In this document: piece by piece, positions 3,270 to 34,650 of the stretch | Numbering within the stretch: the first letter of the stretch is position 1 | Layout of the letters: every line of letters starts with the position of its first letter | Virus record (IMG/VR): IMGVR_UViG_3300045118_000261 | Coordinates: 1-40,454 of that record | Source of the DNA: a virus | Length of the DNA: 40,454 nt | Direction: 5' to 3' (one strand) | Notes under the pieces: model-generated | Database searches by the model: none | Seen by the model: the letters and a program-made list of their open reading frames with translations, nothing else | Told to the model about the DNA's origin: nothing | Program-made: the position numbers and the translations under genes

Positions 3270-3298
3270 TTGTACAATATGAATAAATGGTATATAAT
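3270..3298 (+). promoter_or_regulatory. Rightward promoter with overlapping operator-like site
   Basis: TTGTAC (3270-3275), 17 bases, then TATAAT (3293-3298). The predicted start of transcription is at or within a base or two of the ATG at 3306, so the message is probably leaderless. The stretch TTGTACAATATG (3270-3281) matches 11 of 12 bases of the palindromic operator in the two strong leftward promoters, and it covers the -35. This would allow the HTH product to regulate itself. Confidence 0.65.
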
Positions 3299-3305
3299 GT
3301 ACACT

Positions 3306-3515: not shown

Positions 3516-3912
3516 ACACGAAAGACACGTTGCAGAGCTTCTCAGAGGATATGGATTTGATGCCAAGAGAACTCCAATGAGCGGAGCAATTGATTGGATG
3601 AAGGGAGATATAACATCCCGTGACTTCCCTTTTTTTATTGAAGCAAAGAATACTGAAAAAACAAAGTTTTTAGAATGGTATAAAAAAGCAGAAGATCAAT
3701 CAGGAGCAATGCCACCGATTATAGTGTGGACATCAAACAATGAAAACATATACTGTTTTTTATTATTTACGGACATGTTGAGCCTTATGACTGGAGGAGC
3801 CATGATAAAAGAAAAAATAAAAAAGCCAGAAAAGCCAAAAAAATTATCTCTTGAGGAAACGACGAGATTGAAATTTAGTAAAATTAAACAAGTACGAAGA
3901 AAATTTAAGTAG
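3484..3912 (+). CDS. PD-(D/E)XK nuclease, Holliday-junction-resolvase-like
   Basis: A 142-residue protein. The likely active site is E13 (in RHERHVAELL), D42 (KGDIT) and E53-x-K55 (FIEAK), the order expected for archaeal-type resolvases and related phage nucleases that cut branched DNA. The C-terminus is basic. The start at 3484 overlaps the 3' end of the HTH gene by 32 bases, and there is no clear ribosome-binding site, so translation may depend on the upstream gene. A role in resolving recombination or packaging intermediates is inferred from the fold signature. Confidence 0.65.
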   Translation: MLKNPKSKGNRHERHVAELLRGYGFDAKRTPMSGAIDWMKGDITSRDFPFFIEAKNTEKTKFLEWYKKAEDQSGAMPPIIVWTSNNENIYCFLLFTDMLSLMTGGAMIKEKIKKPEKPKKLSLEETTRLKFSKIKQVRRKFK

Positions 3913-4192
3913 AGTTTATTGTTTCCTCTAGGTCCGCCGCATCTTCATCGGAAGAGACGAGTATAACAACATCGTTCCCATTTTGGACCTCAGCAAGCAC
4001 TACTCCTGCGGTTATAAAATCATCGGCAAGTGATCCGCAATTTTCGTAAATCGTATTCAGTCCCGTTACCAATTGTTCACCCGTTTTTATGTCCTCTGTA
4101 TTTCCTGTCATTACCGCAGATGCGCCGGACGGAATTTGATCGCTTACAGCTAAAATTATTTTACCCACTGGTTCTTCATGTTCTACTGACAT
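3905..4192 (-). CDS. Hypothetical protein
   Basis: A 95-residue acidic protein starting MSVEHEEPVG. It alternates short hydrophobic strands with polar segments (KIILAVSDQ, VVLAEVQNGNDVVILVSS) and ends in an acidic helix. Its 3' end overlaps the rightward nuclease gene tail to tail by eight bases. The first five residues are shared with the protein at 4771-5007, but the rest is not clearly related. It is the last gene of the leftward lysis-region run. The function is unknown. Confidence 0.65.
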   Translation of the reverse strand: MSVEHEEPVGKIILAVSDQIPSGASAVMTGNTEDIKTGEQLVTGLNTIYENCGSLADDFITAGVVLAEVQNGNDVVILVSSDEDAADLEETINST

Positions 4193-4204
4193 ATTCTCTC
4201 TATT

Positions 4205-4768
4205 TTACTCTTCTCCTATTATATTTCCATCTCCATCATACATAAAAAGTACCTTTTTTTGTGGCATTTTTCTTTTTGGTACAGGTTTTTTATCTTCAGG
4301 ATGTTCTTGTCTATATTTTGACTCTATTCTGCGTACTCTCTCGCGTTCATGTTCTGTCACTCCCCAGTCATCATTGGTTATTCTCTCTCCACGCAATACT
4401 GCCTCATGGTGTTTTTTCGCCGCGCTCTTAAATGCTCCTGTATCGCCGTTTCTGTAATCTTGTCGTGCCTGCCCCATATCTGGGTGTCTACTCCATCCGT
4501 CCTCTCCATAAGAAGCAAGCCGTAATTCCCCGCTATCATCATGGATAATACCGTCCCCTGTATGATGTTTTTGACATCTGACTATAGCATCAGTATTGTT
4601 TGGATCTAGCCCGTGTTCAATGAGTTCGCTCTCAGGTGTTAAATGATCTACCTCAAGTCTCTGTGTTGATCCACATGGCTTATATCCTTCTTCTTCGCCA
4701 TAGATAAGCGTCTGGCAAAACTGTTGTGCTCGTATATGCCAGTTGCGGAGGGATTCAGAAAACGGCAT
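4205..4768 (-). CDS. HNH-family endonuclease-like protein
   Basis: A 187-residue protein with a Cys/His pattern of the HNH fold: a Cys at residue 32, LEVDHLTPESELIEHG (about 38-53), an Asn-rich turn (DPNNTD) and RCQKHHTGDG (64-73). The second half is charged and ends in KKVLFMYDGDGN. HNH nucleases near phage structural genes often assist packaging or act as homing enzymes; here the gene lies in the small-gene lysis region. GGAG precedes the ATG and overlaps the stop of the upstream gene. The nuclease fold is fairly likely, the role is open. Confidence 0.6.
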   Translation of the reverse strand: MPFSESLRNWHIRAQQFCQTLIYGEEEGYKPCGSTQRLEVDHLTPESELIEHGLDPNNTDAIVRCQKHHTGDGIIHDDSGELRLASYGEDGWSRHPDMGQARQDYRNGDTGAFKSAAKKHHEAVLRGERITNDDWGVTEHERERVRRIESKYRQEHPEDKKPVPKRKMPQKKVLFMYDGDGNIIGEE

Positions 4769-4770
4769 TG

Positions 4771-5007
4771 CTACTCCAGGGGTTTAGGCGCTGTAGAATA
4801 TGTGTATACGATGATTGTGTGATCGGGATACAGCGCGTTATGCGCTTCTGCTTTTTCGAGAACCTCTTCTGCAATTGGATTAAATGGCGCGATGGTGTAA
4901 TGATCTACGTCCTTGTTCATATCTTCCACTTTTCCCGTTTCCATGGTACAGACTGCGGCAAATCCAGCTATAGATGATCCTTCTACCAGTCTATGTTCTA
5001 CGCTCAT
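4771..5007 (-). CDS. Hypothetical protein
   Basis: A 78-residue protein starting MSVEHRLVEG and containing a Cys in a hydrophobic stretch (GFAAVCTM) and an acidic helix. Its last residues overlap the ribosome-binding site of the next gene. The N-terminal MSVEH is shared with the protein at 3905-4192, and the TIIVYTYSTAPKPLE ending recalls the IVIYKYTGSPKAE ending of the protein at 5113-5340. These may be small related proteins, but the similarity is too short to be sure. Confidence 0.6.
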   Translation of the reverse strand: MSVEHRLVEGSSIAGFAAVCTMETGKVEDMNKDVDHYTIAPFNPIAEEVLEKAEAHNALYPDHTIIVYTYSTAPKPLE

Positions 5008-5116
5008 ATGCTTCTAAAAAATCATTATTCAAGAGTGTGTACCCGATAAGCGTACCGAGAATAAATCCTACAACAAAAGTAATAAAAGAAAATACAATAG
5101 TTATAATCATAATCAT
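4991..5116 (-). CDS. Small single-helix membrane protein
   Basis: A 41-residue ORF whose first 30 residues form one strong membrane helix (MIMIITIVFSFITFVVGFIL and onward), followed by a charged tail. Its ATG overlaps the upstream stop as ATGA, and its 3' end overlaps the next gene start. Position near the amidase and other membrane proteins suggests a holin or spanin-like role, but nothing specific identifies it. Confidence 0.55.
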   Translation of the reverse strand: MIMIITIVFSFITFVVGFILGTLIGYTLLNNDFLEAYERRT

Positions 5117-5340
5117 TCTGCTTTAGGCGATCCAGTATATTTATATATCACTATATCATGGTTTCCATGATATAAATCATCATGTCGAACAGCCAGATAT
5201 TCTGCATACCCGTTTTCCTCAACAATTCTCTGTGTATCTGCAAGATAATAAAGACTATCCCCAGGCTTTGTACACGTTCTGCACGCGACTGAAAATCCTG
5301 GTCTGTATCCTCCCTCTATAGATTCTCTCGATATTGTCAT
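5113..5340 (-). CDS. Hypothetical protein with CxxC
   Basis: A 75-residue protein starting MTISRESIEG. I chose this start because AGGAC precedes the ATG and the ATG overlaps the upstream stop as ATGA; a longer frame adds seven residues. It contains CRTC (about residues 20-23) but no second pair, and ends in a strand-rich segment (NHDIVIYKYTG). The C-terminal pattern resembles the protein at 4771-5007. The function is unknown. Confidence 0.6.
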   Translation of the reverse strand: MTISRESIEGGYRPGFSVACRTCTKPGDSLYYLADTQRIVEENGYAEYLAVRHDDLYHGNHDIVIYKYTGSPKAE

Positions 5341-5600
5341 TTTGGCTGTCCTGCGTACCATCGCCGCAAAAAGTCAGTAAAACGGTTTAAGATAAAAAGC
5401 GTTACTGTACCATACGCCCATTCTCTCGGCACTTTTTCGATTATCACCGGCATCAGAGCCAGAATAAACGGCGTAAGAAATATAATTGTCTGCATACACC
5501 AATTATATGTATCTGTATAATTCCAACTCCACCTCGGGGATTGATCCACCATTTGCCACGATATGTGCGGTATTTCTACTGATTTTCCTGATTTTCCCAT
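5337..5600 (-). CDS. Holin-like membrane protein
   Basis: A small protein of about 87 residues with two likely membrane helices, around residues 37-55 (TIIFLTPFILALMPVI) and 63-76 (WAYGTVTLFILNRF), separated by a short charged loop and followed by an Arg-rich tail. This is the build of many phage holins, which open the membrane for the endolysin. I prefer the ATG at 5600, about eight bases after GGTGGG; a GTG at 5609 would add three residues. The gene follows the amidase and a 32-residue basic peptide. Confidence 0.55.
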   Translation of the reverse strand: MGKSGKSVEIPHISWQMVDQSPRWSWNYTDTYNWCMQTIIFLTPFILALMPVIIEKVPREWAYGTVTLFILNRFTDFLRRWYAGQPK

Positions 5601-5618
5601 ATAATTCACCCACCTTTC

Positions 5619-5717
5619 TTATCTTCCTGTATTGCCTCTTTTTCTTCCACCCTTGCCACCGTAGAGCTTCCTTCTGCCCCACTTATTTTTGTTCATATCA
5701 GAACGCTTCGTACTCAT
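5619..5717 (-). CDS. Very basic 32-residue peptide
   Basis: A short ORF starting MSTKRSDMNK and rich in Lys, Arg and Gly. Its ATG overlaps the amidase stop as ATGA, and it fills the gap between amidase and holin-like genes. Its composition is that of a nucleic-acid-binding or membrane-active peptide. No family is recognised. Confidence 0.45.
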   Translation of the reverse strand: MSTKRSDMNKNKWGRRKLYGGKGGRKRGNTGR

Positions 5718-6634
5718 TTGTCCCCTCTCCAAAATTTTTTCCATCCGAGAACCATAAGCTCCCATCCTGTAATTTTTTCAATAGGATTGACTGTCTGTAT
5801 TTGTTTTATTCTCTCCTCAAGTGATTGTATGATCGTGTCTCGTTTGTCTAAATCCTTTTTTAAAGATATAAGGGCATTTTGAGCCACTGTATTAGCCCTA
5901 GAAAGCTCTGAAATCTGAACACCTAGGTCTACAGCCTCTTTTTTAGCATTTTCTATCTCCACAGCCTGAGATGATATAGATTTTTCTTTCTCTCTGAGAA
6001 TATCCTCAAGTTTTTTAAGTTTATCTATCTCGACAAGTGCAATATCCTGATTGTGTGAAACGCCTATTCGATCATAAATGGCAATAAGATCGTTCCAATG
6101 ATTATCTCGATCCCTCCTGCATGAGTCAAGATCAACCTGAAGTTTAGCTAGAGGATTTACCGCCCCGCTTGCCTCTCGAACAATCCGCTCTATATCCAGT
6201 GCATCGGGACACCCCGTAGCTATTATTTGCGAATGTTTTAATATGTGGTCACGGTCAATCGGAATTTTATAAAAATTACATATATCTTTTACCAATTTTG
6301 CTGATGTAGCATAAAGAGCATCAGTTCTCACTCCGTTATAATCACCGTTATCCTCATGTTCTATTCCTATACTCCTTTGGTTCATTACATAATTTCCTGA
6401 ATGATACGCCGTATTATCTTCATCTACCCAGTGCCATAGAGATCCATCAAGAAGTATGCCGTAATGAGCTGAAACTTTAGAAGCAGGATTGTAAAATCTT
6501 GAGGCGGCGGAAGCGGCTGTACCGACCATTGTGTGGATAATTATTCTATCTATTGTAGTTCTAGACTCATCCCAATTTCCCTGACCTACATTCTTTTCTG
6601 TTACAGGAAGTGAAGTTACCTGTCTTTGAGCCAT
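5714..6634 (-). CDS. N-acetylmuramoyl-L-alanine amidase (endolysin)
   Basis: A 306-residue protein. The first 155 residues are an Amidase_2 domain that cuts the bond between muramic acid and the peptide of the cell wall. Likely zinc ligands are H34 (IIIHT), H134 (LKHSQ) and C142 (GCPDA), with HYG, HSGNY and IGIEHE in the expected places. Residues about 190-285 are a long coiled coil, and the tail is Trp/Lys-rich (GWKKFWRG), possibly wall- or membrane-binding. It has no signal peptide. An extended -10 promoter (6643-6653) sits eight bases before the ATG, so the message may be almost leaderless. Confidence 0.9.
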   Translation of the reverse strand: MAQRQVTSLPVTEKNVGQGNWDESRTTIDRIIIHTMVGTAASAASRFYNPASKVSAHYGILLDGSLWHWVDEDNTAYHSGNYVMNQRSIGIEHEDNGDYNGVRTDALYATSAKLVKDICNFYKIPIDRDHILKHSQIIATGCPDALDIERIVREASGAVNPLAKLQVDLDSCRRDRDNHWNDLIAIYDRIGVSHNQDIALVEIDKLKKLEDILREKEKSISSQAVEIENAKKEAVDLGVQISELSRANTVAQNALISLKKDLDKRDTIIQSLEERIKQIQTVNPIEKITGWELMVLGWKKFWRGDK

Positions 6635-6642
6635 AGGGTTAT

Positions 6643-6653
6643 ATTATATCACT
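6643..6653 (-). promoter_or_regulatory. Extended -10 promoter before the amidase
   Basis: The minus strand reads AGTGATATAAT, a TGn-extended -10, with TATAAT at 6648-6643 and the amidase ATG eight bases further. No good -35 is visible. The same core occurs before the genes at 11194, 15984 and 32701. Confidence 0.5.
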
Positions 6654-6663
6654 GAAAAGCAAA

Positions 6664-6918
6664 TTATTTTATTTTACTTTCAATTACAGAAACTCGTATT
6701 GCTATTTCACCATATCGAGCTTCTACATCACTATATTTAGTAAGTAATTTATCCTGATTTGCAATCAAAATATCCATTTTATTTTCGAGTACAGTAATCC
6801 GTGTATTTAATCCGGCATAAGAAATAACAATCGTCACCAACATCCCGACAAAAGTAACAAGATGAGGGAAAAGATTTGACAGTTGACTCCATGTAATCTG
6901 TTGTTTTTCTTTGCTCAT
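6664..6918 (-). CDS. Membrane-anchored coiled-coil protein (holin/XhlA-like)
   Basis: An 84-residue protein with a polar start, one membrane helix at about residues 17-37 (HLVTFVGMLVTIVISYAGL) and a heptad-rich coiled coil after it. This layout recalls XhlA-type hemolysin/holin partners and other small phage lysis proteins. It starts with an ATGA overlap with the tail gene upstream and lies directly before the amidase. The lysis role is inferred from layout. Confidence 0.6.
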   Translation of the reverse strand: MSKEKQQITWSQLSNLFPHLVTFVGMLVTIVISYAGLNTRITVLENKMDILIANQDKLLTKYSDVEARYGEIAIRVSVIESKIK

Positions 6919-7853
6919 ATTTCTTGACTCATTATAGTTCCACCCTCCAGAGATGTATAGGTGACAGTCAATTGTGGTCTGTTTGCCGGTGTAGCATTTT
7001 CAGCCATATTTATAGAACAACGATTATCAACTGATCCAGGATCGCTGTTTTGTTGGTCTCCTTGCTCTACTAATCCAAACATGGAATAGCCCGTGAGAGA
7101 AATCCATCCCCTCCCTGTTGCGTTAAGCGTAATAGTTTTTTGACCTGTACTTGACGCACTTGCACTACCACCGGACGTAATAACTCCTCCAGGAAGTCCT
7201 GTAAAATTATCATAATCTCCTGCCGCAAGAGACGTTCCAGATGCCTGATTGCTTTGTGCGGAATGGATCGTTGGCGTCCCCGCCACAACTGACGATACGG
7301 TAAAAATATGATCGGCGGAGGAAATCGTTGCTCCAGCACCAAGAGAAGAGGTATCAAATGGAGTAAAACCTCTGCTTATGGAAAAACTTGAAAGTAACGA
7401 GGCGTAAAGATTAACAGGATCAGTCGATGGTTGTGCGGTTCCCGTTGTCAATGCACGCACTGTTGCGTAGCTTCCACCATTGTCGTTATAGATATTCCCA
7501 TCCCCGCCCGCTGTTGATGTGAATGTTGTTGTTGCTAAATATATTCTAGGAAGAAACTCGGGGTATCTTGAAAGTCCGAGGTTGCCAACTAACGCTGTCT
7601 TTAAATCTTCAAAATGTTGTATGTATTGAAGTAACTCATCTATTCTTTGCAGTGACGGCAAAAGTTTTTCCTCGTAATAGTTTCGTGTAAAAAATGTTGC
7701 CTTTATCTGTTTTCCCCCATCAAATCTGTGATATCCATTAGGGACAAGAAGTCTAATGTCTTTATAGTCGTTTGAGATACCAAGATAGTCCCGTCCTAAC
7801 TGAGTCTGGGAGAACCAGGTAAGAAGAGGAGCATATTTCTTAAATAAAATCAT
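6915..7853 (-). CDS. Tail fibre / virion surface protein (paralogue of 16046-17056)
   Basis: A 312-residue protein starting MILFKKYAPLL. I chose this start because it overlaps the upstream stop as ATGA; a longer frame adds 11 residues. Residues 8-45 carry the segment LLTWFSQTQLGRDYLGISND, which is shared with the protein at 16046-17056. The middle is Gly/Ser/Thr-rich beta structure with RGFTPFDTSSL, like DNRLRE-type beta-sandwich domains found in surface proteins. It is probably exposed on the virion. The shared N-terminus may be a common attachment domain. Confidence 0.65.
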   Translation of the reverse strand: MILFKKYAPLLTWFSQTQLGRDYLGISNDYKDIRLLVPNGYHRFDGGKQIKATFFTRNYYEEKLLPSLQRIDELLQYIQHFEDLKTALVGNLGLSRYPEFLPRIYLATTTFTSTAGGDGNIYNDNGGSYATVRALTTGTAQPSTDPVNLYASLLSSFSISRGFTPFDTSSLGAGATISSADHIFTVSSVVAGTPTIHSAQSNQASGTSLAAGDYDNFTGLPGGVITSGGSASASSTGQKTITLNATGRGWISLTGYSMFGLVEQGDQQNSDPGSVDNRCSINMAENATPANRPQLTVTYTSLEGGTIMSQEI

Positions 7854-18741: not shown

Positions 18742-19908
18742 TTATTCTTTTGCAACTGTCGGATATATATCATTCTCAAGATTTTCTAAATACGGCTTCC
18801 AGTATGTATCAAACACCATATCGGTATCATAATTTTCTACAACAAACTTTCGGGCATTTTTCCCCATCTCTATTCTATTTTTCTTATATATTTTTACCAT
18901 ACACTCATAAATAGATTGAATAGATGGTATTGCCATATATGACCCCATGCCGGTAAATCTTTTTTGGCTTATATCTACAAGATATCCAGTGTCATCATCT
19001 CTTATGAGTTCAGTCATAGATGTCCACCTGCTTGTAATTACCGGAACTTCACAAGCCTGAGCTTCTATAATGGGAACACCAAAACCTTCAGAAGTAGACG
19101 GAGCAATAAAAACATCAAATGTTGAATAAATATTTGGCATGTTTTCTTTTGGAGTATTAAATGTCATATGATATGAGTCTGGAAATAATAATTTATTTCG
19201 TATTCCAAGAAATTGTGCGTATGCTTCAAAATCAAATCCTCCTGGAAATTTTGGATTACTATGAATATATAGAAGCGATTTTGGCTCATCTTTGAGAAAC
19301 ATTATAAAAGCATCCATAACCTCTTGGAATGATTTTCTTGGAGGATTATCTTTATTTGCCGCTACCATTCCAACAAGATAGCAATCTTCAGGAAGTCCTG
19401 AGGCTCTTTTTCTTTCTTTTTTATCTTGTGCCTTAAATATCTTTGTATTTACCGTATGCGGAATATATGTAGAAAATATGCCGTTTTTCAATAATTCATT
19501 TTGACCAAATTTAGAATATGTTATCGCTTTATAAGCAAACCGTAATCTATCCAATACGATCCTCGGTGCAGGATCGTGATCTATCGGAAGATACGGAATC
19601 CACTTCGGAACTTTTTGCAAATCTTCAGGATTTAGAACCCATATATCCTGCAAGGTAAGAACTACATCAGCATTAAAATCTTTTCCATGAAGAAAAAGTG
19701 CGTCAGAACCATATACATGATTAACAATCGGATAATGGAGAATTCCATCTAATATAAATTTACCGCCCTGTAATCCAAAAAAATCGCATATAGCAAGAGG
19801 ATATCCTTCATCTCTCATTCTTGGAAGCAATTCTGCCATCTGCTGACTATATCCGCTTGTCGCCCACGGAGCGTTTGAACTCCAAAGTATTCTAAGTTTT
19901 TTATTCAT
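18742..19908 (-). CDS. Glycosyltransferase, GT-B fold, family 4-like
   Basis: A 388-residue enzyme that would move a sugar from a nucleotide donor to an acceptor. The N-terminal Rossmann half has SNAPWATSGYSQQM (residues 11-24). The C-terminal half has the donor-binding EGFGVPIIE motif (274-282), the E-x7-E hallmark of GT4-like retaining enzymes. It is the third gene of a cassette with a second glycosyltransferase and an FkbM methyltransferase. Substrates are unknown; it could modify host surface sugars, phage fibres or DNA. Confidence 0.85.
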   Translation of the reverse strand: MNKKLRILWSSNAPWATSGYSQQMAELLPRMRDEGYPLAICDFFGLQGGKFILDGILHYPIVNHVYGSDALFLHGKDFNADVVLTLQDIWVLNPEDLQKVPKWIPYLPIDHDPAPRIVLDRLRFAYKAITYSKFGQNELLKNGIFSTYIPHTVNTKIFKAQDKKERKRASGLPEDCYLVGMVAANKDNPPRKSFQEVMDAFIMFLKDEPKSLLYIHSNPKFPGGFDFEAYAQFLGIRNKLLFPDSYHMTFNTPKENMPNIYSTFDVFIAPSTSEGFGVPIIEAQACEVPVITSRWTSMTELIRDDDTGYLVDISQKRFTGMGSYMAIPSIQSIYECMVKIYKKNRIEMGKNARKFVVENYDTDMVFDTYWKPYLENLENDIYPTVAKE

Positions 19909-20683
19909 ATTCCTCAGACACTAAATAATCTATTCTTTTTGATACTTTTTCATTTACCCATATATGATAATTCATTTTATTTTGTATATTTCCTCCACCG
20001 GCATGAATGACTTTTATCGTCATATCCTTATCTGGAAACGGCGTATCACCAAATCCTTTTGGAACAACAATCTCATCTTCTCTTAACTCTGCTCGAGTAA
20101 GTTCTCCTTTTGAAATAAGACCCCACCATGAGTGCATATTTGCTGGACCGTCACCATGATCGAAACATCGGACATTCCAATTTCCAAAATATATCATTGC
20201 ATTTAGTAAGTCCTGTTCTTTAAACTGAAGCCTATCAAATTGCGGGGTAAAACAAATATTTTTCCAATCATGAGTAAATTTTTCACTTCTCATGGAGACA
20301 AATCCACAATTCATGTATTCAATTGGAAATATACCCCATCCCTGAACAAATCCGTATGTTTTTGGATCAATTCTATTCCAGTTTATAACTGTTCCTATAT
20401 CATAATCTTTTGTATTCCATATATATGACAATTCTCCGCAAACAATGGAATCTGAATCAATTTTTACGGCAAGATCATATTCCTTGAGATATCTCTCTCC
20501 TAAAATAGGAGTTGCACGATAGTAGAACATCTTATCGGCACTAAGATATCCCTCAAGCTCCTGTCCTTGTATGATAAAAAAATCTATATCTTTGTGGAAT
20601 TTCTTAAAAGAATTTTCAAGAGATTTTGCATACTTCAGGTTATTCTGATCTGCTATAGTGAAAAAGCAAACATTTTTTTTCAT
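19901..20683 (-). CDS. Glycosyltransferase, GT-A fold (GT8-like)
   Basis: A 260-residue enzyme with a DxD-type metal site (KIDSDSI, D76-S-D78) and a late HAGGG segment, the usual histidine of GT8-like enzymes. The middle part (QGWGIFPIEYMNCGFVSMRS) would bind the acceptor. It overlaps the next glycosyltransferase by eight bases, so the two are made together. Its donor sugar cannot be told from sequence. Confidence 0.8.
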   Translation of the reverse strand: MKKNVCFFTIADQNNLKYAKSLENSFKKFHKDIDFFIIQGQELEGYLSADKMFYYRATPILGERYLKEYDLAVKIDSDSIVCGELSYIWNTKDYDIGTVINWNRIDPKTYGFVQGWGIFPIEYMNCGFVSMRSEKFTHDWKNICFTPQFDRLQFKEQDLLNAMIYFGNWNVRCFDHGDGPANMHSWWGLISKGELTRAELREDEIVVPKGFGDTPFPDKDMTIKVIHAGGGNIQNKMNYHIWVNEKVSKRIDYLVSEEYE

Positions 20684-20687
20684 ACTT

Positions 20688-21341
20688 TTATTTTTGAGCA
20701 GAAAATATAGTTGCGTTTGATGGTATCTGCCTAATGGTAAACCCCATATCGCGCAATCCTGAATTTATAATGTTTGGATTTGCGTTACTCCATGAATGCC
20801 ACTCGTATATAAAAGAATCAAGAATCGGTACTATATTTTTGAATGATTCTGAAGTAAACAATTTATCTTCTGTTCCCTCTATATCAAGCTTCATGAAATC
20901 TATATGATCTATCTTATTTTCCTTTACAAATGTATCTAACCGTATTGTCTCAACTTCTTCAGATTCCCTATTATCATTTATTCGTTCATTTAGACTATAC
21001 ATAGTTTTGTTAGTTGAATGATATAGGGTTGTTTTTCCATCTTCCGGTGCTATTGCTTTTTGAAATAAAGAAACATTTGTTATTTGATTCTCGTCGAGGT
21101 TTTTTTGAGCAATCTTACATATATCTGAGGCTGGTTCAAAAGAAAAAACGGTTTTTACTAAAGGAGAGGCATAGAGTGACCATAATCCTATATTACATCC
21201 AATATCAAGGCACAAAGAGTCTTTTTTCCCAATAAGAAATTGAGAATATATTTTCTGGAGATAAATTTCCTGTAAAATCTCTGAAATATGAGAGTTATTC
21301 CAATCGTTAAAATGAAGGACGTGCAACTGACTTGTTTGCAT
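20688..21341 (-). CDS. FkbM-type SAM-dependent methyltransferase
   Basis: A 217-residue methyltransferase. The SAM-binding motif I is CLDIGCNIGLWS (44-55), followed by VFSFEPAS (65-72) and FMKLDIEGTE (about 149-158), the hallmarks of FkbM enzymes that methylate hydroxyl groups, often on sugars. It starts the cassette with the two glycosyltransferases, so methylation of a glycan cap is plausible. It has its own promoter at 21363-21391. Confidence 0.85.
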   Translation of the reverse strand: MQTSQLHVLHFNDWNNSHISEILQEIYLQKIYSQFLIGKKDSLCLDIGCNIGLWSLYASPLVKTVFSFEPASDICKIAQKNLDENQITNVSLFQKAIAPEDGKTTLYHSTNKTMYSLNERINDNRESEEVETIRLDTFVKENKIDHIDFMKLDIEGTEDKLFTSESFKNIVPILDSFIYEWHSWSNANPNIINSGLRDMGFTIRQIPSNATIFSAQK

Positions 21342-27601: not shown

Positions 27602-28915
27602 TTAGACTTCTTCGTATTCTGTAAATTCAATGTTTTCTTCTTTTGTATCTTGGAGTATTTTTGTTTTCTCATATAAGTCTCTTTGTACGATGGTCATCGT
27701 CTTTTCTTTCGATGATTGTATTATAGGAGATAATCCCCAAATTGCAAGGGAGTGACTAAAACATATATCGTCTTTGAACCCTGGAGGAGCACCATATATG
27801 ACTCTGCCGGTCTTTTCTGAATAATCATAAGTGAATGAGTTGAACTCTTGTATTGTTTCTTCAAGATTAAGCATTTTTATATTTTTAAGCTCTATCCAAC
27901 TACTTAATTTTTCAATCAGTTGTTTTTTCATTTCATTTGTAAAATGGATAGGCTCACATGCCACACCGGACCGAACCAAATCCTCGTATATCGGCTCTCC
28001 AAGCCCAGTTGAATCTATATAGACAAGCGCATGGTTAAATTTTACTGCCAAGTCTTTGATTTTTGATTTTTGGAATGGCCATTCAAGTTTGTTAAATCTC
28101 ATTTGGTATACCTGATGATTATTTTTTCTGTCATATACCGTAAGAACAGTATAATCCTGTACTTTTGCCAGATCGCATCCAATAACATATAAATGATTTT
28201 CCTTTGGTTCTTCTGGTTGCAATACACAAATTTCTCTTACTCCTCTAAATACTACACCAGTATCATCAAGAAATTCTGCGTATATTTCCTGTTTTACTAC
28301 ACGCTCTGGCATATCTTTCATATCTTGCATAATAATTTCATGCGGTATATAGGGATTATCAAAAGAAGTAAACCTGAAAGATCGATAATTTACCTGATCT
28401 TTATCAAGTCCACGATTATAAAGTTGTTCAAATAATCCTTTCCCTTTTGGTGTTCCGCCAATAACACCATGAGTATGGTCTGTCCATAACATTGGCTTAA
28501 TTGCATTATTGTATAGATATTCATTTTTTAGAATAATTCCAGCCTCATTGAGAAACCACTCATCATATTCAAATCCTTCTATGTTTTCAGGATTATCGGC
28601 ACTCCTAAAGTCTATATAGGAGTTTTTAATTTGAAGAATTTTCTGCTGTTTTCTCCAGTTAAATATATTTTGAGGTAGTTTTGTAAGTGCAGGAAGAAAA
28701 TACCGCTCAACATATCGCTCTATGTTTGCGTTTACCGTGTCCACCCATAAACCGCGCTTAAACTCATTTTTTAGCGCTTTTTTAATAAAATTATTTGCAG
28801 CACCACGAGTAAGTCCAAACCGTCGTCCTTTTGGTACGATAATAAACCGAGTAGGACAAGTGAAAATAGAATCCTGACTAGAAAAATTCTTAATTGGAAG
28901 CTGAATAACAGACAT
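27602..28915 (-). CDS. terL: Terminase large subunit
   Basis: A 437-residue packaging motor with an ATPase and a nuclease. The ATP-binding region is VPKGRRFGLTR (27-37): the usual lysine of GRRxGKTR is Leu35, while K29 stands before the loop, as in some other terminases. Walker B and the catalytic carboxylate are YDEWFLNEAG (117-126). GGTPKGKG (153-160) is the coupling motif. The RNase H-like nuclease has D248 (GCDLAK), D301 (YIDSTGLGEP) and D382/D383 (KDDI). A DUF5681-like gene, possibly the small subunit, lies separated by sugar genes. Confidence 0.9.
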   Translation of the reverse strand: MSVIQLPIKNFSSQDSIFTCPTRFIIVPKGRRFGLTRGAANNFIKKALKNEFKRGLWVDTVNANIERYVERYFLPALTKLPQNIFNWRKQQKILQIKNSYIDFRSADNPENIEGFEYDEWFLNEAGIILKNEYLYNNAIKPMLWTDHTHGVIGGTPKGKGLFEQLYNRGLDKDQVNYRSFRFTSFDNPYIPHEIIMQDMKDMPERVVKQEIYAEFLDDTGVVFRGVREICVLQPEEPKENHLYVIGCDLAKVQDYTVLTVYDRKNNHQVYQMRFNKLEWPFQKSKIKDLAVKFNHALVYIDSTGLGEPIYEDLVRSGVACEPIHFTNEMKKQLIEKLSSWIELKNIKMLNLEETIQEFNSFTYDYSEKTGRVIYGAPPGFKDDICFSHSLAIWGLSPIIQSSKEKTMTIVQRDLYEKTKILQDTKEENIEFTEYEEV

Positions 28916-28923: not shown

Positions 28924-29400
28924 TTATTTCGATACATTTATAAAACTTGGCCTTTTATCTTTTACCATGCGGTCTATCATATTATTCATATCATTTACCG
29001 TTTTCGGATAAAAATGTATTATATTTCTTAGCGTATATAGAATATTCGGTATGTCACATGCCTCATGGCTAAATCCATCATGACGGCTATATTGATCGTC
29101 TACACCAGCACCAATCATTTTCACGTTTAGGTTTTCATAGTTAATATATGTTCGTATTGTCTCAAATCCACGAAGAAGAAATGGCGTTATTGTGTAGATA
29201 AACGGTATTTTTTCTGAATATGCAAGTCCTACTGCTATATCCATTGCCGTTTGTTCGGCTGCCTCTGTATTGATGGCTCGATCTCCAAATTTTTCCTTAA
29301 ATTCCTCAAGTCTTGGATATCCTAATCCAACAAAAATAAGATAAACCTTTTTGTTTTTTCTCATTACTTCAAATAGCTTATCAAATAATTCTTTTTTCAT
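28924..29400 (-). CDS. Transketolase-like subunit, pyrimidine-binding domain
   Basis: A 158-residue protein matching the central domain of transketolase / DXP synthase-like enzymes. NTEAAEQTAMDIAVGLA (44-60) holds the catalytic glutamate (E49) that activates thiamine diphosphate, followed by the PFIYTITPFLLRG and HDGFSHEACDIP segments. No third domain is present. It overlaps the gene for the other half by four bases (ATGA), so both halves would be made together and form one enzyme. Two-subunit transketolases of this kind occur in archaea and in some surface-sugar gene clusters; the substrate here is unknown. Confidence 0.8.
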   Translation of the reverse strand: MKKELFDKLFEVMRKNKKVYLIFVGLGYPRLEEFKEKFGDRAINTEAAEQTAMDIAVGLAYSEKIPFIYTITPFLLRGFETIRTYINYENLNVKMIGAGVDDQYSRHDGFSHEACDIPNILYTLRNIIHFYPKTVNDMNNMIDRMVKDKRPSFINVSK

Positions 29401-29969
29401 AACGTCATATAATGACCTTTTAGTCCTTGAAATTGATTTCCGTTGTTTGTCCAGTAAATATATGGATCACTATTAAATGATCTCATTCGTAATTCAAGAG
29501 TTAATCTATCAACCTCTTGAACTGCACTAAATCCATTGAAATTACAATAAATCTTTAGATTTTCAAGTTTTAGACTATCTCTAATTCTTAATGCCTCCCA
29601 GTTGCTCCCCTCCATCATTGACCCGTCACTTACGACACAATGGACTGCTTTAGTTCTATTAGAAATCGCTATTCCTATACCTATACCTATACCATGACCA
29701 AGAGATCCACCAGATACGTCGCACCCTGCCTTTTTATCACAATGAATTCCATGAGCTTTTAATAAATATTCTATATTTTCTAAGCGTTCATATTTTTCTC
29801 TTACTACGAGATGAGCTAGATGTGCATGTCCATTGTCGAGGATAACAATATCTTTTTTGTTTTTGTTGGTATAAATTTCAATAAGAATAGGAAGCACGGA
29901 AATATTTGACCCTATATGGGAGAGATTGTATTTTTTGCTTATTTCGATAACCCGATCTTCAAGGCTCAT
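29397..29969 (-). CDS. Transketolase-like subunit, thiamine diphosphate-binding domain
   Basis: A 190-residue protein matching the N-terminal domain of transketolase. Conserved pieces include LSHIGSNISVLPIL (16-29), ILDNGHAHLAH (43-53), SGGSLGHGIGIGIG (86-99) and the metal/diphosphate motif SDGSMMEG with a later Asn (D115, N143/N145). The domain is shorter than in full enzymes. It would pair with the protein at 28924-29400. Its ATG lies inside a 14-base hairpin without a ribosome-binding site, so translation is probably controlled or coupled. Confidence 0.8.
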   Translation of the reverse strand: MSLEDRVIEISKKYNLSHIGSNISVLPILIEIYTNKNKKDIVILDNGHAHLAHLVVREKYERLENIEYLLKAHGIHCDKKAGCDVSGGSLGHGIGIGIGIAISNRTKAVHCVVSDGSMMEGSNWEALRIRDSLKLENLKIYCNFNGFSAVQEVDRLTLELRMRSFNSDPYIYWTNNGNQFQGLKGHYMTL

Positions 29970-30004
29970 AAAAGGCGGGGGTTAACGAATCCCGCCTTTT
30001 ATGA
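29966..30004 (-). promoter_or_regulatory. Long hairpin covering a start codon
   Basis: A perfect 14-base inverted repeat (29966-29979 with 29991-30004) has an 11-base loop. One arm contains the ATG of the transketolase gene (29969-29967). A second inverted repeat, GGTTAACG (from 29979) with CGTTAACC (to 30012), shares part of this sequence and cannot form at the same time. It may be a terminator, a translation switch or both. The stem is followed by no long T-run. Confidence 0.6.
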
Positions 30005-30006
30005 CG

Positions 30007-30813
30007 TTAACCAATCATTTCAAGAATAATATCTTCTATTGTTTGCTTTGGCTTCCACCCTAAAAAACTAAGAACTTCTATATTCGATACCCATTTTTTC
30101 GTGTCATATGGACGTAAAGATTCAACCTCTTTAATATTCGCTTTTTTATGAGTGATTTTCTCTACAATTTCTTTTATTTTTTTATTGCTTATACATTCTC
30201 CTGAGCCTATATCAATGATTTGTCCCTTTAACTTATCAGCATATTGCATAAGACATAGAACCGCCTCACATAAATCTTTAACTCCTATAAAATCATGAAC
30301 AGGATTAGAAACAAAAGGAATTTCTATTCCCAATTGACAGCTTTTTATAAGTCTGGGTATAAGATGCTCTTCTTGCTCTCCTTTTCCTATGACTGTAAAT
30401 GGACGAACAGAAAAAACAGGCTTATTGTATTTATTCACAAACGCTCTTACTATTCTCTCCCCCGATGCTTTTGTTGCGCTATAAAATGTCTCATGTGAAA
30501 GCATAACACTTGAGGAACTAAAATTTATAAATCCTTGATAATCTATATTTCTTGTCATTTCAAGAAGATTTGCTAGTCCAATAATATTTGCATAAATAGT
30601 TTCAAAATCATTGTCTTGACTATATTTGTTTCCATATGCTGCGGTATGGATAATAAAATCAGGTTTATTATAATTAAAAAATTCCGTTATTTTTCTAAAA
30701 TCATAAAGAATATCACGAGGCATTCCGAGAACGGAAAACTCAGACCCTTTAAGAGTCTTTTCGAGATTTTGTGCTATAAAACCATTCCAGCCGGTCAAAA
30801 CGCATTTAACCAT
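30007..30813 (-). CDS. NAD-dependent epimerase/dehydratase (extended SDR)
   Basis: A 268-residue sugar-nucleotide enzyme. The Rossmann motif is TGWNGFIAQN (7-16), with a Trp where Gly or Ala is usual. The active site has S99-S100 and Y111-x3-K115 (FYSATKAS). The middle resembles GDP/UDP-sugar epimerases (RPFTVIGKGEQEEHLIPR). It is shorter than typical 310-residue members. With the transketolase halves downstream, it probably makes or changes an activated sugar. Confidence 0.8.
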   Translation of the reverse strand: MVKCVLTGWNGFIAQNLEKTLKGSEFSVLGMPRDILYDFRKITEFFNYNKPDFIIHTAAYGNKYSQDNDFETIYANIIGLANLLEMTRNIDYQGFINFSSSSVMLSHETFYSATKASGERIVRAFVNKYNKPVFSVRPFTVIGKGEQEEHLIPRLIKSCQLGIEIPFVSNPVHDFIGVKDLCEAVLCLMQYADKLKGQIIDIGSGECISNKKIKEIVEKITHKKANIKEVESLRPYDTKKWVSNIEVLSFLGWKPKQTIEDIILEMIG

Positions 30814-31033
30814 ATTTTTCTATTGATGTTCCAACAATTGTCGTTCCTTGTATTTGATATCTAAATCCACACCCACACTGAAGTTCATATGTGTCTGAAT
30901 GAATGATAGTTGTCCCAGAATGAAATCGAAGAACCAATAGATCGCCATTTTCTAAAATTCTCCCTAAAACTTGAGGCTTTTCGGGGTGTTCATGACTTTG
31001 GCAATAGAGTAATAGCCCGGTGGCATTCATCAT
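30806..31033 (-). CDS. Hypothetical protein with CGC motif
   Basis: A 75-residue beta-rich protein with LQCGCGFRYQIQG (52-64). Its ends overlap or abut its neighbours. The strand pattern (GRILENGDLLVLRFHSGTTI) looks like a small barrel. It lies between the DUF5681-like gene and the epimerase. The function is unknown. A second Met follows the first; the start is uncertain by one codon. Confidence 0.55.
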   Translation of the reverse strand: MMNATGLLLYCQSHEHPEKPQVLGRILENGDLLVLRFHSGTTIIHSDTYELQCGCGFRYQIQGTTIVGTSIEKYG

Positions 31034-31035: not shown

Positions 31036-31380
31036 TTATGAATCTTCTTTTTGTTTATCTTCAATTATTTTTACCTCTATTTGATTTCCATCATTACCAG
31101 AAAACTCATTTTTTTGGACTGGCATACCATCTATGTAATTCCATAAGGTCTTAATTGCTGTTATATCACCTTGAAGAGCCATGTGAAGTATTTTTTGTCC
31201 TAGAGCTTTCTTTATCTCTGGCTTTTCATCCATCATGGCTTTAATTGTCTCTGTAATAGAATGACCTTTCTTAGGTCTGCCAGTTGGATTAAGAACGCCA
31301 GAAACGACTCGTCCATTTTCATCACGCACCAATTCTCTACCATTATTCTCTACTTGATTATTGGTGTTATTGTCTTCCAT
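31036..31380 (-). CDS. DUF5681-like, possible small terminase
   Basis: A 114-residue protein containing NPTGRPKKGHSITETIKAMM (31-50) and ILHMALQGDITAIKTLWNYI (64-83) with DGMPVQ after it. This is the pattern I associate with DUF5681-type phage proteins that lie close to the large terminase and may recognise DNA as the small subunit. A strong AAAGGAGG precedes the start, and the gene overlaps the methyltransferase gene by 31 bases. The terminase role is inferred. Confidence 0.65.
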   Translation of the reverse strand: MEDNNTNNQVENNGRELVRDENGRVVSGVLNPTGRPKKGHSITETIKAMMDEKPEIKKALGQKILHMALQGDITAIKTLWNYIDGMPVQKNEFSGNDGNQIEVKIIEDKQKEDS

Positions 31381-32102
31381 TCCGCCTCCTTTCCAATAAA
31401 TTTAGCATAGCGTTTGCGGATTACATCGGCGTAATGCTCGTAGATCTCCATTATATAGCAAATACGGTTTGTTTGTTCACAGGCGATAAGAAATGAACCG
31501 CTACCACCGTATGGGTCAAATATAATATCGTTTTCCTTACTAAACTTCTTATAAAACCATGAAGCTAGTTGTATTGGTTTTTGCGTAGGATGCTGTCTAT
31601 TACTTCCTTTCTCTTGTTCAGTTCCAAATATACCAGCCCATCTAATTCTTACTATTTCTCGTTTATGTTTTTGTTTACTCCACACTAACTCAAATGTAGA
31701 ACCAAACATTCTATCCATATTTTCTTCAACACGTTTATCCCATACAAACCAACTACCATCATTAGGAAGTGTTTTAGAATAATAATCCCCACCAAAATAA
31801 AATTGCTCTTTAATACCATAATCCATATAAATAAATGGTTTATCATCACCTATTATAGAATTGTATTTCTTGCCGCTTTTCACTCCTTTTTCAAGAGCAA
31901 ACCGCGGCTTGCTCTTCATGCCGCTATAATCCGTATCTAAATCCATCCCATACGGTGGGTCAGTAAACACCATATCCGCTTTCTTCCCGTTCATCAACTT
32001 CTCTACATCCTCAATCTTTGTCGAATCACCACACATTAAAAAGTGAGATTTTATATCCGCTTCAGTATATCCAAACTCATGATCGCCACATTTCTGTATC
32101 AT
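31350..32102 (-). CDS. DNA adenine/cytosine-N4 methyltransferase, C-terminal part of a ParB-MTase
   Basis: A 250-residue methyltransferase with TDPPYG (47-52) before the SAM-binding FDPYGGSGSF (195-204), the beta-class order, and HPTQKP in between. DPPY favours N6-adenine. The start (MIQKCGDHEFGYTEADIKSH then FLMCGDSTK) looks like the middle of a longer protein: in many phages a ParB-like domain is fused just upstream of LMCGDST. Here the ParB part is a separate gene (32728-33303) and an HNH gene lies between them. It probably modifies phage DNA against restriction; the target is unknown. Confidence 0.8.
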   Translation of the reverse strand: MIQKCGDHEFGYTEADIKSHFLMCGDSTKIEDVEKLMNGKKADMVFTDPPYGMDLDTDYSGMKSKPRFALEKGVKSGKKYNSIIGDDKPFIYMDYGIKEQFYFGGDYYSKTLPNDGSWFVWDKRVEENMDRMFGSTFELVWSKQKHKREIVRIRWAGIFGTEQEKGSNRQHPTQKPIQLASWFYKKFSKENDIIFDPYGGSGSFLIACEQTNRICYIMEIYEHYADVIRKRYAKFIGKEAEWKTITPIIK

Positions 32103-32701
32103 ATTTTATTATTCTTTGAACAATTACAACTTATACATAAAGGCTGTAAATTATCTATATTGTTTTTCCCACCTTTTGAAAGTGGAATTATATGATCTAT
32201 TGTAATTTTTTCTTTAGTTTTACACATTTGACATTCTCCATTTAATTCTAATAATTTAGCTTCCCATAATTTCTTATCTATTTTACCGCTTTTATTGTTT
32301 CTTAACCTATATTTATAAGTTTTTAATTGCCATTTACCTTTTTCAGTTTTCCTATATTTTTTAGTTGCTTTATTATTGTTTTTTCGTCCTAATTTAGACT
32401 TACTATAATTTTTATCTCTTATTTTTTTAGCTTGCTGACACTTAATACACTTTTCTAAATGCTTCGTTGCCCTTAATACCGCTAAATGCCTTGCTTTAGG
32501 CTTTGATCTATATTTTTTCTCATTTAACCATCTTTTATTACTTTTTATCCATCTATTATTTGTTTTTATTCCTTTATTGGTTTTTTTATATTTAGCCTTA
32601 ATTTTTCTTATATTTATAATCTTGCAATCATTACAAAGTCCCCATTTATGATGCCAATGTGGATTAGGAATAAAGTTTTTTTTACAATCTCTACATAACA
32701 T
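32099..32701 (-). CDS. HNH endonuclease inserted between ParB-like and methyltransferase genes
   Basis: A 200-residue, very Lys/Asn-rich protein. The C-terminal HNH domain is CQMCKTKEKITIDHIIPLSK with NNIDNLQPLCISCN, which carries the metal-binding His and Asn plus two CxxC pairs. The N-terminus has CRDC and CNDC, another zinc site. Its composition is more AT-rich than its neighbours. It has its own promoter and overlaps the methyltransferase start as ATGA. Free-standing HNH genes like this are usually homing elements. Confidence 0.85.
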   Translation of the reverse strand: MLCRDCKKNFIPNPHWHHKWGLCNDCKIINIRKIKAKYKKTNKGIKTNNRWIKSNKRWLNEKKYRSKPKARHLAVLRATKHLEKCIKCQQAKKIRDKNYSKSKLGRKNNNKATKKYRKTEKGKWQLKTYKYRLRNNKSGKIDKKLWEAKLLELNGECQMCKTKEKITIDHIIPLSKGGKNNIDNLQPLCISCNCSKNNKI

Positions 32702-32707
32702 GACTTT

Positions 32708-32735
32708 ATTATATCACCACACATCAATTATTCAA
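32708..32735 (-). promoter_or_regulatory. Promoter of the HNH gene, probably leaderless
   Basis: The minus strand has TTGAAT (32735-32730), a 16-base spacer ending in TGA, and TATAAT (32713-32708), an extended -10. The ATG at 32701 starts seven bases after the -10, so the message would have no leader. The same region reads in frame as LMCGD, a remnant of the methyltransferase motif. Confidence 0.6.
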
Positions 32736-33303
32736 GATGGTGTTTCTTTCCACATTTTGGACATATTATCCATTTTCCAAGTTGATATACTTCACCCAGC
32801 CTCGATATAGGCTCTCCCCCTGCTACCTCCGGCACTTCATCTTCTTTAATTTCTTTGAAACCGTCTATTAGCTGATCTAGGGTTTGTGGTTGTTTCAGGT
32901 CAACCGCGTAATCCTCCCAGGTAAAATCAGAAAACTCCCCAGACAAGTTAGCTAGCAGGTCCTCATCATAGAACCCCGCCCTGTCATTATCGGACAAGGC
33001 ATATTCTAACTTCTTCTCCGCTGTATCGGCCCTAACTACAGACACCCAAACATTCTCTATGCCCAACTCTCTGTATGCCCGCAACCTCATGTTGCCGCCT
33101 AATACTATACCGTCTTCGGTAATCACAAGCGGCTTGTATTGCCCCAGCTCCTGTATCTGTTTCTTTAGTCGCTCGAAATCTTTCGCCTTAATAGATCGAG
33201 GGTTCTTGTCCCACTCCCGTAAAGACAACAAAGATCGTATTATTTTCCTACCAGATTCCTGCCTCTGTACTGCCTTAGGATGGCTTGTTTTTGTGTTAGT
33301 CAT
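32728..33303 (-). CDS. ParB/Srx-like nuclease domain protein
   Basis: A 191-residue protein. Residues 25-95 are a ParB-like domain: LREWDKNPRSI, QELGQYKPLVITEDGIVLGG and NMRLRAYRELG carry the usual GGxxR-type motif. The end (ISRLGEVYQLGKWIICPKCG) is the linker that in fused proteins leads into an LMCGDST methyltransferase. It stops shortly after, at a TAA, where the HNH insertion starts. It may help the methyltransferase find or hold DNA. GAATAAGGC precedes the ATG. Confidence 0.8.
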   Translation of the reverse strand: MTNTKTSHPKAVQRQESGRKIIRSLLSLREWDKNPRSIKAKDFERLKKQIQELGQYKPLVITEDGIVLGGNMRLRAYRELGIENVWVSVVRADTAEKKLEYALSDNDRAGFYDEDLLANLSGEFSDFTWEDYAVDLKQPQTLDQLIDGFKEIKEDEVPEVAGGEPISRLGEVYQLGKWIICPKCGKKHHLE

Positions 33304-33798: not shown

Positions 33799-34650
33799 TC
33801 AAACATCTGCATATTTTATCGCTCTCATAATTTCAATCGCCACCTGCGGGACTATTGCATTTCCATAGGCTTTAAGTGCTTCTTTCCGCCACCACGGATA
33901 GAATTTATAGTCTTCACGTCCAAGTCCACCCAATCTTGCGGGTATCCCATCATCCATCCTACAAAATCGCTGTGCAACTTCAACCCAGTTTTGTTCCCAA
34001 CTTCGTGATTTAACTTTCCCCTTCCTGCTTTCTTCATATTTACCCCTGCTGAATGAGATTGATAATCGTTGCTTCGTGTTGTAGGCAACAATCCAAACTC
34101 TGTCCCGCCTGTGTGGCGCATTGACGGAAACAGCTGGAATAATGAACGGCTGTACTTCGTAGTTTTCCTTTTCCAAGTCAGTGCACACTTGTTCGAGAAC
34201 CAATCCGTTGTTCCAAGTAACCAATCCCGCAACATTTTCAGCGATGATCCACCGTGGTCGATAGAGTCGAATAACGTCAAACATTGGAGACCAGAGGTAA
34301 CGGTCATCATCCGTTCCTTTTCTTCGTCCAGCATGGCTAAACGGTTGGCAGGGGAAGCCACCAGTGAGAAAATCACATCCGCTATGTTCCTTGAATGTGT
34401 CGTTCCTTTTCCTGATATTCTGCGTCCCGTCTTTGATAACTTTGCTTTTGGATGTTCTACATCCTGACCTGTCGGTGTCGGCAATAAACTGTCTGATGTC
34501 GCCATAAAATTCTCCTTTCGACCAATGTTTTTTCAATACCGCTTGGCAAAACGGGTCAATTTCCACGAAAACATGCTCTGCGTTCTTCCATACTTGGTCT
34601 ACCGCATAACTAAATCCACCAATGCCTGCAAATAAATCTATGTGTATCAT
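33799..34650 (-). CDS. DNA cytosine-5 methyltransferase
   Basis: A 283-residue C5 methyltransferase with the full set of motifs: DLFAGIGGF (5-13), EIDPFC (30-35), GGFPCQPFSHAG (97-108, catalytic C101), IAENVAGL (136-143), APHRRDRVW (178-186) and AYGNAIVPQV near the end. The region between motifs II and IV is longer than usual and rich in Lys/Arg. A GGGGAGGG ribosome-binding site precedes it. A second long frame (33852-34505) lies wholly inside this gene. It probably protects phage DNA; the target site is unknown. Confidence 0.9.
   Translation of the reverse strand: MIHIDLFAGIGGFSYAVDQVWKNAEHVFVEIDPFCQAVLKKHWSKGEFYGDIRQFIADTDRSGCRTSKSKVIKDGTQNIRKRNDTFKEHSGCDFLTGGFPCQPFSHAGRRKGTDDDRYLWSPMFDVIRLYRPRWIIAENVAGLVTWNNGLVLEQVCTDLEKENYEVQPFIIPAVSVNAPHRRDRVWIVAYNTKQRLSISFSRGKYEESRKGKVKSRSWEQNWVEVAQRFCRMDDGIPARLGGLGREDYKFYPWWRKEALKAYGNAIVPQVAIEIMRAIKYADV
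33852..34505 (-). CDS. Gene nested in the cytosine methyltransferase (other frame, same strand)
   Basis: A 217-codon ORF entirely inside the methyltransferase gene. Its ATG follows AAAGGAG with a six-base gap, one of the best ribosome-binding sites in the window. The product reads like a real protein: LLPTPTGQD near the start, then DWLLGTTDWFSNKCALTWK, LLPTTRSNDYQSHS and FVGWMMGYPQDW. I recognise these as recurring in phage proteins linked to cytosine methyltransferases (for instance endings like FVEWMMGYP). I therefore treat it as a true overlapping gene, function unknown. Confidence 0.7.
   Translation of the reverse strand: MATSDSLLPTPTGQDVEHPKAKLSKTGRRISGKGTTHSRNIADVIFSLVASPANRLAMLDEEKERMMTVTSGLQCLTLFDSIDHGGSSLKMLRDWLLGTTDWFSNKCALTWKRKTTKYSRSLFQLFPSMRHTGGTEFGLLPTTRSNDYQSHSAGVNMKKAGRGKLNHEVGNKTGLKLHSDFVGWMMGYPQDWVDLDVKTINSIRGGGKKHLKPMEMQ

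Follow-up and report, generated by a model that had tools for sequence, protein, structure and literature searches.

The 40,454-nucleotide sequence of IMG/VR virus record IMGVR_UViG_3300045118_000261, analyzed over its full length and hereafter termed the window, carries a three-gene cassette on its minus strand, directly ahead of the gene for the large terminase subunit (TerL, 27602–28915, minus strand; Terminase_6C, 9.7e-10), which served as the anchor for neighborhood comparisons. From upstream to downstream, the cassette encodes an extended short-chain dehydrogenase/reductase (SDR) of the nucleotide-sugar epimerase/dehydratase type (30007–30813, 268 amino acids (aa); Epimerase, 1.3e-28), a shortened transketolase-type N-terminal half with the domain for the diphosphate of thiamine diphosphate (ThDP) (PP domain; TKN, 29397–29969, 190 aa; DXP_synthase_N, 3.3e-10, and Transketolase_N, 5.2e-6) and a pyrimidine-binding domain (PYR, 28924–29400, 158 aa; Transket_pyr, 2.5e-12), whose chain stops where the C-terminal transketolase domain (TKC) would start. 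These Pfam matches, TerL included, lay above the curated cut-offs, the three reading frames were intact in the open reading frame (ORF) listing of the window, and the TKN and PYR genes share an ATGA overlap. A first-pass annotation, made from the sequence alone, had described a PP-domain gene, a PYR gene, a short SDR gene, the ATGA overlap and the adjacency to TerL; all coordinates proved exact and Pfam agreed. With regard to PHROG, the SDR matched a nucleotide-sugar epimerase family (phrog_540, 5.7e-41), and the matches of TKN and PYR were weak. The closest PDB profile match of the SDR, 6zl6, is listed only as an epimerase-domain protein, and no NCBIfam equivalog reached its cut-off for a specific activity (4-epimerase, dehydratase or reductase).

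The AF2 models of TKN and PYR, folded as single chains, had pLDDT (predicted local distance difference test) values of 85.6 and 94.3, and their top Foldseek matches were 6yak (TMq 0.81) and 6yaj (TMq 0.88), respectively. These are the two chains of the split-gene transketolase of Carboxydothermus, the closest solved folds for both proteins. In order to compare residues, 46 rows of the short family and 21 long homologues were aligned with Escherichia coli TktA as the numbering yardstick; loci L056 and L062, which have no PYR, were omitted, and five rows were used from L097–L111 (L and G numbers are our own handles for loci and genomes). The roles of the TktA positions as ThDP, catalytic or phosphate ligands are those which we take to be general knowledge on transketolases. 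TKN residues H18, H48, H76, D115, N145 and H186 aligned with TktA H26, H66, H100, D155, N185 and H261, and PYR residues E49 and H112 with E411 and H473. The equivalents of D155, N185, E411 and H473 were kept in all 46 short rows, as was that of H100, while those of H26 and H66 (one gap, presumably due to the truncated L023) and that of H261 were found in 45 of 46. The ThDP motif was present in TKN (D115, G116, N145), with a serine at the G154 equivalent, as in 18 of the 21 long homologues. Within the phage alignments, the active-site residues that the annotation had reported as intact were invariant, i.e., D115 of TKN in 16 sequences, E49 of PYR in 17, and Y111 and K115 of the SDR in 13; in the latter set, G8, G11, F12, S101 and S102 were invariant as well, corresponding to the glycine-rich Rossmann start, the Ser/Thr position and the YxxxK motif. 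The donor-phosphate site showed a different pattern. The R358 and R520 equivalents were R or K in 46/46 short rows, the S385 equivalent was G, K or another residue, and that of H461 was G in 45/46, a residue also present in 14 of the 21 long homologues, which vary at the S385 position as well. At the neighboring position 462, R was found in 43/46 short rows and in none of the 21 long ones. As judged from these alignments, the catalytic site is retained and the substrate site is non-standard.

The second departure from known transketolases concerns the missing domain. Transketolase_C (PF02780) matched none of eight phage records (the window, G001, G374, G376 and G381–G384), and the control was positive in 14 out of 14 genomes. 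The final residue of PYR aligned with TktA R520, and the PYR profile stopped at residue 193 of the 341 residues of 6yaj, while the 6yaj chain goes on. TKN itself is also shortened. The spacing between the N185 and H261 equivalents comprised 76 residues in TktA and 73–78 in the 21 long homologues, 65–69 in 19 and 42–43 in seven of the 26 bacterial short rows, and 36–48 in 17 and 66–67 in three of the 20 phage rows, a series that looks like a stepwise reduction. The phage group includes three contigs of metagenome-assembled genomes (MAGs) placed there by gene content (L073, L076 and L080, the latter two with uncertainty), and the weak TKN matches L081–L084 and L086–L091 were left out. Searching 281 Microgenomatia genomes with the PYR profile yielded 17 with a short PYR (at least 199 bits, frames of 137–185 aa), and the next-best match dropped to 151.6 bits in a 315-aa frame. 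A tree of 68 PYR rows placed the 46 short and the 22 long ones on opposite sides of a branch of length 2.57 with 100/100 support; as it was built from columns filled in at least 30% of the rows, columns from the TKC part of the long chains are included. On the short side, sequences from phages and bacteria were intermixed. On the basis of score gap and tree, the short PYR chains (approximately 150–186 aa) are classified here as a separate subfamily, shared with genes of polysaccharide loci in Patescibacteria and Omnitrophota.

The annotation had called the gene pair a split transketolase. The two-chain ThDP type and the intact catalytic residues are in accordance with that name, but without TKC and with a partly altered phosphate site, the pair is not an ordinary split transketolase. 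ThDP enzymes that consist of two domains only exist, and we also considered that the pair might be a decarboxylase or another non-ketolase enzyme with minimal PP and PYR domains, comparable to sulfopyruvate and phosphonopyruvate decarboxylases, and might make the precursor of a side chain. The TKN model also matched the phosphonopyruvate decarboxylase RhiEF, although more weakly (E 3.5e-4, rank 45), and weak NCBIfam matches to both kinds of decarboxylase were obtained; however, sequence and fold are closest to the split transketolase (6yak, 6yaj), and the transketolase histidines H26, H66, H100, H261 and H473 are kept. A decarboxylase appears improbable to us, and the pair very probably constitutes a functional ThDP enzyme.

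Conservation of the cassette was then followed among phages. The first relative retrieved, L002 (IMGVR 3300005458_000038), matched the window in gene order (small cysteine-rich gene, SDR, TKN, PYR, TerL), with about 60% identity for TerL and about 40% for the cassette proteins. Single-protein scans of IMG/VR reached one relative with TKN and none with PYR, and alignments of the window with L002 reached more; a TerL-based scan provided 41 loci. Among the 12 loci with 57–66% TerL identity, 10 had TKN and PYR ahead of the TerL gene, and the remaining two, L019 and L022, extend upstream for only about 1 kb and were counted as misses; L003, L011 and L012 are repeat loci of counted records, and L016 and L017, probably one phage, were counted as two. 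The TKN and PYR profiles found none of the six loci at 56% TerL identity and none of the 23 below it, many of which likewise contain little upstream sequence. Absence or breakage of the genes in close relatives, named in the annotation as the finding that would speak against it, was thus looked for, and in the group with TerL at least 57% identical the genes were kept. The cassette also occurred in phage contigs outside this TerL group (L004–L010), and across phage groups its proteins were approximately 35–60% identical and retained the catalytic residues. An SDR with a profile score of at least 280 bits lay directly upstream of TKN and PYR in 15 of the 20 rows treated as phage, a count in which L004 and L023 begin too near a contig or locus end. 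Since the same order recurs in diverged phages, the gene trio is more than a chance association.

These data bear on the view that the genes are passengers newly acquired from a host polysaccharide locus, without phage function. The polysaccharide-type loci of the bacterial homologues and the interleaving of phage and bacterial rows would be consistent with it, but gene order and catalytic residues are conserved at that level of divergence across many phages, and the place ahead of TerL is the same in 10/12 loci, so that this view is very improbable. Several insertions were seen among the relatives. Methyltransferase-like genes intervene between TKN and PYR in L005 (7986–10324) and L073 (7980–9728), and TKN and PYR are therefore not always adjacent. 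Genes resembling HNH homing endonucleases by eye lie between cassette genes in L014 (3159–3602) and L015 (2879–3343 and 185–688), at TKN/PYR and HddA/nucleotidyltransferase junctions, and the 693-aa TerL of L016 (3197–5275) is seemingly split by an intein, also by eye. Phage tblastn records (1 and 17, below 60% identity) were set aside, several of them being apparently cellular though labeled as phage (e.g., H8, a Salmonella contig).

A second set of minus-strand genes in the window points to glycan synthesis. Behind the capsid gene, at 18742–21341, lie genes for an FkbM-type methyltransferase, probably acting on a sugar (20688–21341; PF05050, 6.7e-14; TIGR01444, 6.4e-27), a GT8-like glycosyltransferase with a conserved DxD motif (19901–20683; D76, D78) and a GT4 glycosyltransferase (18742–19908; Glycos_transf_1, 6.1e-18). 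The GT8-like protein of the window had no Pfam match and was assigned through orthologues matching Glyco_transf_8 at 3.4e-6 and 5.6e-5, the second below cut-off. Homologues were likewise placed in G001, L015/L152 and a Roizmanbacteria prophage described below, and partly in L016/L157 and L021/L158. A GT8-like homologue was found in 11 of the 20 records searched and in all seven cassette-bearing records of at least 29 kb (the G384 match being weak). Sugar and glycosyltransferase genes were contiguous in L008–L010; in L008 and L009, SDR-TKN-PYR is followed by FkbM-FkbM-GT8-like-GT-GT4 in one run, interrupted only by a 150-aa gene (L008) or a small opposite-strand ORF (L009). The link between cassette and glycosyltransferases that the annotation had suggested is thereby strengthened. 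DNA, which it had named among the things decorated, gained no support, as no gene in favor of it was found and the FkbM, GT8-like and GT4 genes sit behind the capsid gene. A role of the cassette in making a sugar for glycans is likely.

Directly ahead of SDR-TKN-PYR-FkbM-FkbM-GT, L008 encodes a 1516-aa protein with long Ser-Pro-Ser repeats (2647–7194), a possible glycosylation target. In some relatives, a GroEL gene lies between the FkbM and GT8-like genes (L146:2855–4465, Cpn60_TCP1, 1.5e-60; L149:1424–3016, 5e-51; L152 from 1129, by position and size only); the window has no GroEL gene at this place.

The substrate may be approached through the genes that precede the cassette in related phages. 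In L024, the SDR gene follows genes for a GmhA-like isomerase (NF001628, 2.1e-26), an HddA-like kinase (NF049969, 7.3e-41) and a short nucleotidyltransferase (MurU, 5e-24; HddC, 1.7e-16). The same trio was found in L014 taken together with L151, and L015 contains the end of HddA and the nucleotidyltransferase. Similarly, an Omnitrophota locus (L060) combines HddA, HddC, GmhA and, by eye, GmhB and transaldolase with an SDR, methyltransferase-like genes, TKN, PYR and a GT2-like gene. This resembles the pathway to GDP-D-glycero-D-manno-heptose (GmhA, HddA, GmhB, HddC), in that GmhA-, HddA- and HddC/MurU-like genes precede the cassettes of relatives; it differs in that these genes were not recognized in the window and that a GmhB was not noticed in any phage. 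Since none of the heptose-gene matches reaches a curated equivalog cut-off, any assignment to one particular sugar is tentative, and nucleotide and sugar are both uncertain because the phage nucleotidyltransferase is short (174–186 aa). In the group with 56% TerL identity, the trio occupies the cassette site without SDR, TKN or PYR in L025, L026 and L029 (two of the three genes in L028). Hence, the heptose trio and the cassette share a site and can occur apart, as each stands without the other.

One explanation would be that TKN and PYR supply sedoheptulose-7-phosphate from pentose phosphates and thereby boost the substrate of GmhA for NDP-heptose synthesis. In favor of this, the trio directly precedes SDR-TKN-PYR in L024 and L014, L060 has the transaldolase-like gene, and the catalytic residues of transketolase are retained. 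On the other hand, the trio lacks TKN and PYR in the loci just named, TKN and PYR occur without it in the window and in G001, and the phosphate site is altered. In addition, 15 of the 17 Microgenomatia genomes with a short PYR, including the lysogen G002, also encode a TKC-domain protein, in each case in a frame of at least 302 aa, which would fit an ordinary transketolase or a relative. Given this dissociation and the TKC proteins of the 15/17 genomes, we regard mere provision of sedoheptulose-7-phosphate as unlikely and prefer a transfer of the ketol unit to a sugar that the SDR would have prepared.

Patescibacteria are tiny, uncultured bacteria, and the window phage probably infects a member of this group. 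A contig of Roizmanbacteria UBA1450 (G002:C2) runs from cellular genes (by eye, uvrA, uvrB, uvrC and secG) through an integrase (PF00589, 1e-10) into a prophage that carries the cassette. Identities to the window were 68% for the capsid, 59% for the portal, 52% for the scaffold, 58% each for GT4 and the GT8-like protein and 36% for FkbM, and a Patescibacteria host is likely because capsid, portal and glycosyltransferase genes are shared. The TerL of the prophage is of another type (24%), and that of the window had no match in this genome. The tRNA-Leu 3′ end that would form the att repeats occurs only once, so that the insertion point could not be placed, and on its right side the prophage extends beyond the contig.

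Such a prophage also raises the question of what is decorated. Lysogenic conversion or superinfection exclusion could alter host glycans instead of the virion, a reading that departs from the one preferred here in target only, so that their probabilities overlap. The related prophage sits in a Patescibacteria chromosome, the bacterial homologues lie in polysaccharide-type loci, and PMC12911398, which counts 46 O-antigen nucleotide-sugar genes in Patescibacteriota phages, proposes that such genes change the host surface; neither transketolase nor heptose appears as a word in its main text. By contrast, the GT8-like and GT4 genes lie in the structural operon behind the capsid gene (window, prophage, G001 and L015/L152), and no membrane polymerase or flippase was noticed, though no search was aimed at them. 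Modification of the host surface as the purpose of the system seems rather unlikely; concerning the target alone, we give the virion an even chance and the host surface a smaller one.

Taken together, we favor, with moderate confidence, a reading in which an α2β2 ketol-transferase and the SDR act on an activated sugar for phage glycosylation. The PP and PYR chains would associate, probably as α2β2, holding ThDP between them; this stoichiometry is expected because the Carboxydothermus enzyme was reported to be active only in that form. The complex would be a minimal transketolase-type ketol-transferase without TKC. With the neighboring SDR as partner, it would make or modify an activated sugar, and the most plausible way is the transfer of a two-carbon ketol unit from a ketose phosphate donor to a sugar oxidized or epimerized by the SDR. 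In related phages, the route to the substrate may start with heptose activation by GmhA, HddA and the nucleotidyltransferase. The FkbM methyltransferase and the GT8-like and GT4 enzymes of the phage could then use the sugar for the decoration of a virion protein or, with lower probability, of the Patescibacteria host surface. Two-carbon branching or extension of the SDR's sugar, of which the annotation had named the branching, is one option, somewhat less likely than not. The most specific version, in which new TKC-free two-chain ketol-transferases common to Patescibacteria and their phages convert a nucleotide-activated keto-heptose into a two-carbon-extended or branched sugar for virion glycosylation, is doubtful.

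A number of observations weigh against this reading. Two of the four TktA donor-phosphate ligands (R358, S385, H461, R520), namely S385 and H461, are lost, and the window itself departs from the family with K at 358, K at 520 and V at 462. L006, L007 and L080 have no SDR or a different one, and its pairing with TKN and PYR is therefore not obligate. Neither the window nor G001 has recognizable heptose genes, 8 kb of the window separate the glycosyltransferase genes from the cassette, and the host call derives from one prophage, the portal profile having matched one of 372 Microgenomatia genomes, G002 alone. With regard to its meaning, phage genes of central metabolism are mostly interpreted as strengthening the metabolism of the host, and here a transketolase fold seems to be tied to a glycan pathway; the graded series seen in bacteria and phages suggests that this fold was trimmed down to the catalytic minimum. 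If this is confirmed, enzymologists would gain a compact two-domain transketolase that can be expressed, and the cassette would offer both a way to an unusual activated sugar that lends itself to testing and a possible glycosylation system of Patescibacteria phages.

Other features surround the cassette. Between SDR and TKN, a perfect 14-bp hairpin (29966–30004, minus strand), with the TKN start codon within its 3′ arm, had a predicted stability of −25.5 kcal/mol (z −4.63; none of 200 shuffles equally stable) and occurred in one copy in the window; a function in gating translation, or as a terminator within the operon, is possible. Upstream of the SDR gene, the ORF listing contains a gene for a cysteine-rich 75-aa protein (30806–31033, minus strand), and similar small proteins precede the SDR in L015 and L024. 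The annotation had placed the cassette between a DUF5681-like gene (31036–31380) and TerL; the position was right, and the DUF5681 label corresponds to a Pfam match below its cut-off (25 vs 27.5 bits). Further ahead (31350–33303 and 33799–34650) are genes for an N4/N6 DNA methylase, an HNH nuclease, a ParB-like protein and a C5 DNA methylase (1.2e-42).

As for known systems, the Carboxydothermus hydrogenoformans transketolase (ChTK, 6yaj/6yak), which also has PP and PYR on separate chains and is the best fold match for both, was active only as a reconstituted α2β2 complex according to PMC7661550. In contrast to the window, its second chain contains PYR plus TKC and its TKN comprises 309 instead of 190 aa; moreover, the S385 and H461 equivalents of the window differ from TktA. 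Closer are the bacterial TKC-less PYR/TKN pairs of Patescibacteria, Omnitrophota, Elusimicrobia and some marine MAGs, which belong to the same subfamily by score gap and tree and often have an SDR upstream in polysaccharide-type loci, but whose TKN mostly retains the approximately 24 residues between N185 and H261 that are lost in 17/20 phage rows. The streptomycete antibiotic clusters for miharamycin and amipurimycin, set beside the phage cassette by description only, likewise combine an oxidoreductase with a split-gene transketolase; in section 2.3 of PMC12247030, the two are proposed, not shown, to add a hydroxyacetyl unit to a keto sugar, so that the function is putative there too. A search of the open-licence literature (PMC) returned no description of a phage transketolase/heptose cassette. 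However, Campylobacter phage CP21 encodes a TKC-less pair annotated as "putative transketolase", CP21_041 (192 aa), which was the sole BFVD match at E ≤ 1e-3, and CP21_104 (149 aa), and an SDR as well; the word transketolase is absent from the main text of PMC4546147. The CP21 genes are about 49 kb apart (HE815464.1, 25189–25767 and 74423–74872) and very divergent (37.5 and 50.8 bits to the window-family profiles), with Y at the aligned H66 and no counterpart of H100 and H261; the SDR lies elsewhere in CP21, as does a Cpn10-like gene. A two-piece, TKC-free "transketolase" was thus known before, and the cassette described here, transketolase-like without the TKC domain that characterizes split transketolases, is a variant rather than the first of its kind, because the pair of CP21, though distant and histidine-poor, had already been annotated.

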